Shown here: positions 32,435 through 35,664 of the stretch, in pieces
Position numbering within the stretch: the stretch's first letter is position 1
How the letters are laid out: the number at the start of each line of letters is the position of its first letter
DNA from: Bacteroidota bacterium
Lineage (GTDB): Bacteria > Bacteroidota > Bacteroidia > Flavobacteriales_F > PHOS-HE28
Length of the DNA stretch: 36,234 nt
Reading direction: 5' to 3'
NCBI GenBank assembly: GCA_014584605.1
Contig: JACTMO010000016.1
Location: 1-36,234, forward strand
Notes under the pieces: generated by a model
What the model saw: the letters and a program-made list of their open reading frames with translations, nothing else
The model's database searches: none
Told to the model about the DNA's origin: nothing
Made by a program: the position numbers and the translations under genes

Positions 32435-34444
32435 CTACCGCCCCACCTTCACGGCCTTCTTCACCACGAAGCTGTCGTTGAGGAACAGCGTCACATGGTA
32501 GGTGCCGGGCGCGATATCCGTGGTGGTCCAGTCGTGGGTGTAGGCACCGGCCTCCCGCACGGCCTCCTCCAGCACCTCCAACCGCTTGCCGCCGACATCG
32601 CTCACCTCCAGCCGCGTGCGGCCCGGCGTGGCCACCGTGTACCGCAGCTGCGTGTGGTCCGCCACCGGGTTGGGTACGATGAACAGGTCGGTGCGCAGGG
32701 CCTCTCCCGCACCTGCTCCGGGGCTCATGGAGCGCTGATCCGTGCTGCCGTGGGCGGCGCAACACGAAGCGAGGTCCTGCTGTAGGGCGCTGATCTGGGC
32801 CTGCTGCGCATCATTCGCGGTCTTCAGTTCCTGGATGGCACCGATGAGGTACGGGATGATCCCCTCGTAATTCACTGTCAGAAGGTCGGCCGATGCCGAG
32901 ATCACGTTGCCAGCGGAGTCTGTCACCTCAGGTCGATGCGCTTCGCGCACCAGATGAGGCAGCACCTGTTGAAGATCTTGCGCCAACACACCGGCTTGAT
33001 ACCCGGCCGGCAGGTTCATCTCGGGGTGATCTTGAACTGCGAATTCATAGGACTTGGGGGCTAGCTGCTGCACCACGTCCAAGCAGCCGTCCAGTGGTTC
33101 GATGTTCTGCTTGAGGCCGGCATCCGAGGTCACCCATGGGCCCAAGGACAGATATCCATACCCATCGAACCAGCCGGCCCAACCAGGCCCACCGGACATG
33201 TCATTCACCGCCACACCCCAAACACCAATGGGGTCCTGCGTGATGTACTCACCATCCGCATGGAAAAAGCCCGACACGACGCTGCCCCCTTGGGCGCCAG
33301 TGCCGGTCAACGACACCATACCCCAGTTCCGCTCGGCACCATCCACCGCTGAACGAACACCGAAATTCTCTGATGCCTCGTCCACATTGATGGCATCGAC
33401 CGCCACTTTCGTTGCGCTCACAAAGCTCATCTGAGAACGGATGCCGATCTCCGTTCCGAAACCATTGTCATAGGTCTTGAGCACATCAAGCTTCGCCTGC
33501 GGATCGATCATCCCGATGCCCACCATGTTGGTGGCATCCGGGCAACCGGTCGGGGCACTGGGCAGGTGGGCGGTAACGATATCGTCGAACCCGTTGTTCT
33601 CCCAGTCGCAATCACCGCCCCAAACACTGAGCGTGCGCCAATGGACCCGACCATCAACAGGATCCACCACCAGCACGTTCTCTAAGGTTGTGCTCTCATA
33701 GTCCGTTCCGCTCCCGATCGGCGGAGTGGTCATGAAGTTCCGCAGGCGGATGGTGCGATCGAGGATATCTAAACGTTCGACCGGGTCAAGACCCGCGCCC
33801 TGCCAGTGGCCCAGGCCGAAAAAGACCTCGTTGCAGGACGTGGCTGGCGTGAAGCGCCCTGCCTCCAACCCATCGACCCCAGCAGCCAGAGTTGTGCCCA
33901 CATTGTTCCGCGTGAAGATGAACCGCAGTTGATCGGGACCGTCCGGTTCGCCGAACAGGCCGTTGTCCGACCAGGCCAGGGTCAAATGGTTCCTGTCGCC
34001 GGCCTCAGCCTTAAGGCCCAGATAGGCCTGATCAGACAAGTAAGTGATGTAGGTGCCTTGTTTCATCCAGGGCCGCCATCCACTGTCCTGGTTACCCCCT
34101 CCATCCAGGTGCAACATGGCCTGGGGCTTGTCCACCAGCGAATTCGAAAAGGGTCCGATGCCCAGGAAGCCACTGAGGTTCAACCCTGTGTAGCTGTTCA
34201 CAGATTGCCCGGTCAGCGTTGGCGACAAGGTGACACGCTGGATCGCATCGGTGTACCACTCGATCGGCTGGTTCAGATCATGCCGAACCATCAGCGGGAA
34301 ATTGTTGGTCCCCGTGTTATCCCAACCCAGAAAATCGGTTGCGATACCAGCATTGCCAAGTACCGTGGACTGACCGACCACCTTCCCGGTAGTCAGCAGT
34401 AATGCACCCAGGATCAGGTGCTGTAAGAAATTCTTCGTTCTCAT
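32435..34444 (-). CDS. Secreted protein with S74 self-cleaving chaperone and T9SS domain
   Basis: The 669-residue protein has a signal peptide (LGALLLTTGKVVGQ), a long beta-rich passenger to about residue 435, then a peptidase S74 (tail-spike intramolecular chaperone) domain. The S74 site reads TSDAGLKQNI with S440, D441 and K445, matching the serine-lysine arrangement that cuts just before the serine. GVLAQDLQQVLP and LTVNYEGIIPYLIGAIQELK are the usual later blocks. A coiled coil (DAQQAQISALQQDL) and a type A T9SS domain (VPNPVADHTQLRYTV to GTYHVTLFLN) follow. S74 passengers normally form trimers. The start at 34444 opens the signal peptide and is preceded by a hairpin. It is downstream of another T9SS cargo gene, with 46 nt between. 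Confidence 0.9.
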   Translation of the reverse strand: MRTKNFLQHLILGALLLTTGKVVGQSTVLGNAGIATDFLGWDNTGTNNFPLMVRHDLNQPIEWYTDAIQRVTLSPTLTGQSVNSYTGLNLSGFLGIGPFSNSLVDKPQAMLHLDGGGNQDSGWRPWMKQGTYITYLSDQAYLGLKAEAGDRNHLTLAWSDNGLFGEPDGPDQLRFIFTRNNVGTTLAAGVDGLEAGRFTPATSCNEVFFGLGHWQGAGLDPVERLDILDRTIRLRNFMTTPPIGSGTDYESTTLENVLVVDPVDGRVHWRTLSVWGGDCDWENNGFDDIVTAHLPSAPTGCPDATNMVGIGMIDPQAKLDVLKTYDNGFGTEIGIRSQMSFVSATKVAVDAINVDEASENFGVRSAVDGAERNWGMVSLTGTGAQGGSVVSGFFHADGEYITQDPIGVWGVAVNDMSGGPGWAGWFDGYGYLSLGPWVTSDAGLKQNIEPLDGCLDVVQQLAPKSYEFAVQDHPEMNLPAGYQAGVLAQDLQQVLPHLVREAHRPEVTDSAGNVISASADLLTVNYEGIIPYLIGAIQELKTANDAQQAQISALQQDLASCCAAHGSTDQRSMSPGAGAGEALRTDLFIVPNPVADHTQLRYTVATPGRTRLEVSDVGGKRLEVLEEAVREAGAYTHDWTTTDIAPGTYHVTLFLNDSFVVKKAVKVGR

Positions 34445-34490: not shown

Positions 34491-35519
34491 CTATTCGGCC
34501 AATACGAACTTGTGCGTTTCCACCCGGCTGCGATGCGCCATGCGCAGCACGTAGGTACCTCGCGCCCAAGACCCCACCTCCAGCACCCAGCGATCGCTGG
34601 TGACCCGGCCCTGCCAAAGCAACCGACCCACAAAATCCAACACCTGTGCTTCAGCCCCCGCCCGTTGGCCCACGACCAGGTGGTCTTGCGCAGGATTAGG
34701 GAACAATGCCGGGCCTGCGGCCTGCGCCTCACCCACCCCTTGTCCTAGATCGCAACCATCCGGGCTGGCTGAGACACAGACTGCATCCACCAGAGTGTAT
34801 GCCCGGGGCAACCAGTACCAAGGAATGCCCTCTGGAGAAAACTGCAGCGTATCCGTCAAGGCATTGCTGAAGAACTGCCCGATCATCACGTACTGGTAGG
34901 CACTGTCGGCCACGAAGCTGCCGCTCACCAAGGTCCAACCCACCGTATCCGCGAGGATCTGCGGATACAGAACGTGCGCATGGTCGGGCGGCACCGGGTA
35001 GGGATCACCCCAAACCCACGGGCGGTCCTGCATGCTAAAGAGCATGCCCACCTTGTCGTTGGCCAACCAGATCTGCGGATACTGGGCATTGCCGCCGAAG
35101 GCCGCATTTGCCCGGAAGCTGCAGTAGTAGGTCTGCCCCACCACCAAGGGTTCCAGCAAAGGAGCCATGATCCATTCGCGATACTCGGATGAACCATTCT
35201 GATGGTAGGTGAGCATGCCTGCGCACGAGGAGCCCTCGAAAGGGTACTGGAAGGTGATGAAATTCATGGGCAAGCCGAAGGCACTACCATACGGCAAGCA
35301 GCCCTGCAAATGATCAGGGGTTCCATTGGCGCTATGCCAATGGAGCGGGCCATCCACTCCAAAGCCAGCTTCCGAGCAGGAGTCCGCCACTTCGAACCCC
35401 GAGTTGGGCACCAGGTTCTGGGCCTGCGCGGTGGAGGTGATGGAGCACAGCACCATTGCCACGGCCATGGTCGGCACCTTGCTACCCGCGGGGAACAGTG
35501 TGTTGGCGGAGTTCATCAT
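34491..35519 (-). CDS. T9SS type A cargo protein with N-terminal carbohydrate-binding-like domain
   Basis: The 342-residue protein has a signal peptide (hydrophobic MAVAMVLCSITSTAQAQ) followed by NLVPNSGFEVADSC, the usual opening of Bacteroidota surface proteins whose first domain is a CBM-like jellyroll (to about residue 245, with VVGQTYYCSFRANAAFGG and TLVSGSFVADSAYQYVMIG). The C-terminus is a type A T9SS sorting domain (PALFPNPAQDHLVV to GTYVLRMAHR). The double ATG at 35519 and 35516 is used; an in-frame ATG at 35546 is also possible and is preceded by a purine-rich stretch. Neither choice is certain. The gene probably forms an operon with the S74 gene. Confidence 0.8.
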   Translation of the reverse strand: MMNSANTLFPAGSKVPTMAVAMVLCSITSTAQAQNLVPNSGFEVADSCSEAGFGVDGPLHWHSANGTPDHLQGCLPYGSAFGLPMNFITFQYPFEGSSCAGMLTYHQNGSSEYREWIMAPLLEPLVVGQTYYCSFRANAAFGGNAQYPQIWLANDKVGMLFSMQDRPWVWGDPYPVPPDHAHVLYPQILADTVGWTLVSGSFVADSAYQYVMIGQFFSNALTDTLQFSPEGIPWYWLPRAYTLVDAVCVSASPDGCDLGQGVGEAQAAGPALFPNPAQDHLVVGQRAGAEAQVLDFVGRLLWQGRVTSDRWVLEVGSWARGTYVLRMAHRSRVETHKFVLAE

Positions 35520-35664
35520 CGTCAAGTTCGTATCGGCCGGGAGCATCGCTCCGGCCCGCCTCCTGGTTCTTCGGGTTGTCCGCGGCCATGGCGCCTTCCG
35601 CGTGCCCGCCCATAAGACCGCCTGGGCGGCGGGGGCGCTGCCCGGCGCTGCCGGGGAGGCTCCA

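Follow-up and report, generated by a model that had tools for sequence, protein, structure and literature searches.

The window analysed here, a stretch of 36,234 nucleotides, comes from a Bacteroidota bacterium of the order Flavobacteriales whose genome, a 3.7-Mb assembly, carries ten Peptidase_S74 domains. One of these domains lies in a gene for a 669-residue protein, composed of a Sec-type signal peptide, a passenger of about 415 residues, the S74 domain itself, a helix ending in a pair of cysteines, a flexible linker and a type A sorting domain (hereafter the tail) of the type IX secretion system (T9SS); a second gene, whose product also has such a tail, lies immediately upstream (Table 1). 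The start codon was chosen on the basis of the signal peptide, MRTKNFL(K/Q)HLILGALLLT, which is conserved in the homologues L012, L073 and L079. For the passenger, AlphaFold2 gave a model with a mean pLDDT of 61, for which Foldseek returned no match below an E of 0.39, and the profile search of the PDB returned no match for this region.

Table 1. Features of the S74 fibre gene and its neighbour in the window.
Feature	Position	Strand	Remarks and basis
S74 fibre gene	32435..34444	-	669 aa from translation; ATG at 34444
Sec-type signal peptide, ~residues 1-25	34370..34444	-	judged by eye; matching N-terminal pattern in most complete homologues
N-terminal passenger module, ~residues 26-320	33485..34369	-	conserved in family
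Variable fibre part, ~residues 321-439, with MVGIGMIDPQAKLDV	33128..33484	-	sequence comparison
Ser440, predicted nucleophile; predicted cut T439/S440	33125..33127	-	profile match and conservation
Lys445, predicted general base	33110..33112	-	residue position and conservation
S74 head, residues 440-530	32855..33127	-	profile and predicted fold
Coiled-coil helix, P531 to C562	32759..32854	-	model and register
Cys561-Cys562, predicted inter-chain disulphide ring of trimer	32759..32764	-	conservation and register
Flexible linker, residues 563-586	32687..32758	-	low pLDDT in model
T9SS type A sorting domain, residues 587-669	32438..32686	-	profiles (below cut-off) and fold
Partner gene, 351 aa, own T9SS type A tail	34491..35546	-	46 nt upstream of S74 gene, same strand

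The S74 domain is recognised by the Pfam model Peptidase_S74 over residues 440–499 (E 1.7e-12; 47.8 bits, cut-off 22), and the family profile, when compared with the PDB, finds phage S74 structures as well as the eukaryotic protein MyRF. Ser440 and Lys445 are present in the translation, as the first-pass annotation had stated, and their spacing of five is that of S911/K916 in endoNF and S587/K592 in MyRF (PMC8326128). The tail is C-terminal to the predicted cut, and cleavage before Ser440 would leave a piece of 230 residues, again as had been claimed. A monomer model of residues 404–669 (pLDDT 83, low in the scissile stretch) comprises the alpha/beta body of S74 and a 39-residue helix up to the cysteine pair, followed by a linker modelled as disordered and by a tail of seven strands. 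The closest solved fold of the S74 part is the intramolecular chaperone (ICA) of MyRF (7dc3; Foldseek 7.3e-6; VIA Z 10.0 over 130 residues), with the endoNF chaperone (3gw6) as the other top structural match; both structures come from self-cutting proteins, and the model thus has the S74 fold with its terminal trimerising helix. The oxyanion arginine which phage proteins carry at position -14 (T5 R1250, K1F R897) corresponds to Phe426 here, and arginine is rare at this position in the family, with no majority. This substitution counts against cleavage, although MyRF cuts without a phage-type arginine (PMC8326128), and hence the residue does not define S74 domains as a whole.

The tail of the window protein scores below the cut-offs of both relevant profiles: TIGR04183 matches residues 589–666 with an E of 2.5e-4 and 20.9 bits, below the curated 23, and Por_Secre_tail (PF18962) reaches 14.4 bits against a cut-off of 27. 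Its assignment as a T9SS type A tail is supported by the motif LFIVPNP, by tails of paralogues, which exceed the cut-off of the type A profile (C16 with 23.1 and C44 with 26.9 bits), and by its predicted fold, a seven-stranded Ig-like sandwich resembling the C-terminal domains (CTDs) of PorU (6za2, VIA Z 9.8) and mirolase (8qb1, VIA Z 9.0) and matched by Foldseek to the T9SS-bound CTD of RemA (8gl6). Ig-like folds match widely, so that the predicted fold supports this assignment without proving it. The genome encodes a T9SS, including SprA (2565 bits) and PorU (1195 bits), and yields 143 TIGR04183 matches. As expected of T9SS cargo, the protein has a Sec signal peptide, judged by eye, and its genome has SprA and PorU.

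The S74 domains compared here come from 45 genomes, representing 45 species in a single genus, of which 42 gave a match, and from 296 genomes of the phylum, of which 88 did. Across the phylum, most S74 proteins lack a T9SS tail. The survey for further proteins of this kind, which the first-pass annotation had proposed, found a tail behind S74 in 94 of 204 distinct domains, 82 from this genus and 12 from other families, and the arrangement is therefore more than a chance event. Serine and lysine are both kept in all 82 tailed proteins of the genus and in 11 of the 12 from elsewhere, the sole exception being L160, in which both are lost (EDARLR). The L160 locus consists of two adjacent S74–tail genes, one of which retains Ser-Lys, while its neighbour with EDARLR is still tailed. 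Among the 82 tailed genus proteins the serine is written with TCN codons in 65 and with AGY codons in 17; its presence in both codon families indicates that the residue itself is kept, and not merely the codon. The first profile had been seeded with SDxxLK sequences and was therefore subject to ascertainment bias, for which reason the domains were recounted with a dyad-blind profile (A3) that begins after the dyad. It recovered 128 distinct S74 bodies, with SxxxxK in 124; in the four exceptions serine is replaced by cysteine (L029, L255) or proline (L175), or the sequence is cut by the contig end. L029 and L255 are related S74 domains (CDENLK and CDESLK), in which cysteine is a possible alternative nucleophile. 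Loss of the active site is thus rejected by two methods, one of them with a profile from which the dyad was absent, and nothing supports the earlier suggestion that cleavage is lost; nor was the pair found to be unconserved among relatives, an outcome which the first-pass annotation had named as evidence against its proposal.

The S74 tree requires at least 11 changes of the tail label, at least four of them on well-supported branches, and S74–tail fusions are accordingly read from this tree as having been gained and lost more than once. Several loci depart from the common organisation. One (L128; G000:C36:8144-11852) has three tandem untailed S74 genes, each with a signal peptide. At L006/L129 (G000:C47), the frame of the S74 gene is broken and the tail lies in another frame. 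In L085, L090, L099 and L103 the open frame begins inside the passenger. These broken frames, that of C47 included, may be read as assembly error, decay or switching. In the literature searched, no paper describing S74 combined with a T9SS tail was found; an apparent co-occurrence of the two terms in text was due to chance, the one case checked being a sample label. The arrangement is built from known parts.

Between the S74 head and the tail, a Cys-Cys pair at the position of residues 561–562 is present in 78 of 82 tailed proteins of the genus and in two of 12 tailed proteins elsewhere. It occurs in two of 22 untailed genus proteins and in none of 81 untailed proteins outside the genus, and the pair was for this reason rejected as a mark of all S74 domains. 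The untailed genus set includes L006 and L022, which look truncated or frameshifted, and L098, which runs into an assembly gap; its two cases with a Cys-Cys pair were not counted as counter-examples. The link between the cysteines and the tail could reflect shared descent (four usable pairs, sign test p 0.5). The distance from the proline that starts the helix to the cysteines is 23 (n = 30), 30 (n = 30), 37 (n = 6) or 44 (n = 3) residues, and coil length consequently varies by whole heptads only, with 69 of 69 values equal modulo 7. The core positions -4, -8 and -11 from the pair are occupied by Leu, Ile, Val, Met or Phe in 97–100% of cases, and the first cysteine is itself the next core position of the register. 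By parsimony, coil length has changed at least 23 times on a tree which was built from S74 heads only and in which many forks are weak; for each of the common length classes, at least 6–7 changes are forced by well-supported branches. The heptad register agrees with a coiled coil and is no proof of a trimer. The simplest reading would be a parallel trimeric coiled coil, placed between S74 and three tails and sealed by disulphides that join the chains in a ring. This disulphide-staple reading leans on the heptad register together with general knowledge; a literature search returned no paper on disulphide-capped trimeric coiled coils.

Inside any one genome the tail hardly varies, in contrast to the S74 heads. 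Among S74 paralogues of the same genome, 70 pairs give a median identity of 89% for tails and 43% for heads, whereas between genomes the values are 48% for tails and 41% for heads; heads below 50% identity are joined to tails above 80% in 42 of the 70 same-genome pairs, from 17 genomes. DNA identity rises from 40–60% to 85–95% around the end of the coil, and in its own genome the tail DNA of the window gene has long matches only to other S74 loci (84–94%). The region 32438–32800 of the window and its paralogues (G000, G041, G032, G008, G023, G037 and others) may be cases of concerted evolution or cassette exchange. Comparison of the window gene with L138 from another genome shows a mosaic of three blocks, in which nucleotides 110–963, encoding the N-terminal module, are 89% identical and the middle and S74 parts strongly divergent. 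The varying unit, as judged by these comparisons, is the fibre tip together with the S74 head, and the tail is presumably homogenised within each genome by gene conversion. As the tail remains constant while heads diverge, the evolution of the S74 head is tied to that of its client and not to that of the export signal.

Of the tailed S74 genes in the genus for which the available sequence was long enough, 43 of 51 have a relative of the partner gene upstream; the same holds for two of eight untailed ones in the genus and for three of 41 outside it (tailed 1/6, untailed 2/35). Apart from the T9SS tail, no known family was found for the 351-residue partner.

Several known systems share parts of this organisation. 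The S74 subgroup of the MAT fibres of Bdellovibrio bacteriovorus (Bd3182; PMC10769870) likewise consists of secreted cellular fibres with a signal peptide, a beta-rich shaft and the motif SDxxxK. MAT fibres are further characterised by a conserved beta-rich domain of about 130 residues behind the signal peptide. Bd3182 has been demonstrated to cut itself at its serine, and the substitution S782A abolishes localisation (PMC10769870); unlike the window protein, it is terminated by S74, has no T9SS tail and has no reported closing Cys-Cys. The ICA of MyRF (7dc3; PMC8326128) shares with the window domain its closest fold, the spacing of the dyad, C-terminal trimer helices and the lack of the phage arginine, but it is part of a eukaryotic membrane transcription factor with an N-terminal DNA-binding domain. 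The chaperones of phage endosialidase and T5 pb1 (3gw6; PMC4690869) are also C-terminal S74 domains with Ser/Lys on trimeric fibres; they differ in having long tentacles and a -14 arginine contributed by the neighbouring chain, and the chaperone is discarded and bears no export tail. Gingipains RgpA and Kgp (PMC5562754, PMC10319874) have a terminal type A tail, and the pieces severed from the tail-bearing chain stay together; here, however, the protease itself cuts, at several sites and at the cell surface, and there is no S74 clamp.

Taken as a mechanism, the window protein would belong to a multi-copy family of trimeric fibres that leave the cytoplasm by the Sec route. Three chains would enter the periplasm, where, by analogy with S74 homologues, the S74 coiled coil would nucleate the trimer; the terminal Cys-Cys would, to judge from register and conservation, lock the three bases by disulphides, and S74 would act as a folding clamp on the fibre. 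The three tails of the base would bring the trimer to SprA/PorV and PorU, for which the genome has the machinery genes, Ser440 and Lys445 would cut between T439 and S440, and the fibre would not part from its S74 base before export, either because the cut is late or because an early-cut fibre stays clasped. On balance, though by no wide measure, we favour such a trimer, stapled and competent to cleave, from which the fibre separates no earlier than export. Dyad and tail are both kept in dozens of relatives, which implies that export and cutting must be coordinated and argues against cutting that would leave the fibre behind in the periplasm. Passage of a folded trimer would be compatible with what is known of the T9SS, since its cargo is held to acquire its fold in the periplasm, ahead of export (PMC10202324), and to pass in the folded state through a pore about 7 nm wide (PMC7463736, PMC10202324). 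The puzzle raised by the first-pass annotation, that the cut would free the passenger from the very domain that directs its export, is real; its choice between a cut timed after export and a lost cleavage was incomplete, as a periplasmic cut with a clamped fibre fits the sequence data equally well.

In the case of such an early cut, the trimer would fold and cut itself in the periplasm, S74 would keep its grip on the fibre, and the S74–tail piece would serve as a non-covalent carrier through SprA, resembling a chaperone-usher relay made of one chain. This is possible, if somewhat improbable. Besides the periplasmic folding of T9SS substrates, it has in its favour the width of the pore relative to a fibre of about 4 nm, as in Bd3182 (PMC10769870), the cut pieces of gingipains, which remain together non-covalently (PMC10319874), and the staple, which would keep the base closed during pulling. 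Retention after an early cut is made less easy by the phage and MyRF examples, in which the cut parts separate: the chaperones of T5 and other phage proteins depart readily, and the ICA of MyRF, which the window domain resembles most, scarcely touches its stalk. Alternatively, and equally tentatively, the chain or trimer may be exported whole and cut outside, so that the fibre is freed from a base held on PorV/PorU or A-LPS. The joint retention of dyad and tail suits this course, and because the site of cleavage precedes both base and tail in the chain, PorU would not be needed to free the fibre if cutting were late; to our knowledge, however, there is no factor that delays S74 folding in the periplasm. 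In addition, S74 cutting is normally spontaneous upon trimer formation (PMC8326128).

The dyad might instead be kept for structure, the protein staying whole as a fibre that is anchored at the surface and has S74 as its base. Its invariant S, D(+1) and K could be so explained, as we know of no catalytic role for the aspartate, and a stapled base looks made to stay. This, too, is possible, if somewhat improbable: within the genus the serine is replaced only by cysteine (L029, L255), and elsewhere it is lost together with the lysine (L160), which is the pattern of a nucleophile and its base, and both MyRF and Bd3182 carry the same motif and cut. A degenerate prophage tail fibre with a tail-like C-terminus arising by chance was rejected as extremely improbable. 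Although S74 matches phage tail-fibre families (PHROG), the gene has a signal peptide, a partner gene and a T9SS fold, S74 genes occur in 42 of 45 genomes of the genus with their order repeated in many genomes, and no phage structural genes were seen near the window S74 gene.

With rather low confidence, the stapled trimer may be described more specifically as a secretion-coupled release device, in which the three tails of the disulphide-stapled S74 base form the export handle, the cut frees the trimeric fibre after it has crossed the outer membrane, and a variable fibre-plus-clamp module is recombined onto a constant, genome-specific tail. What is new here is the coil closed by Cys-Cys, the constant tail set against divergent heads, and the partner gene with its own T9SS tail. 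The family provides a natural, multi-copy test case for whether the T9SS can export a folded, covalently linked homotrimer. It also addresses a second question on this system, whether folding is completed on the near or the far side of the outer membrane: since the S74 cut would act as an internal timer, triggered when the trimer forms, the location of the cut piece would tell where folding took place. The combination of a constant export tail with fibre-plus-clamp modules that vary looks like a means by which surface or released fibres are diversified.
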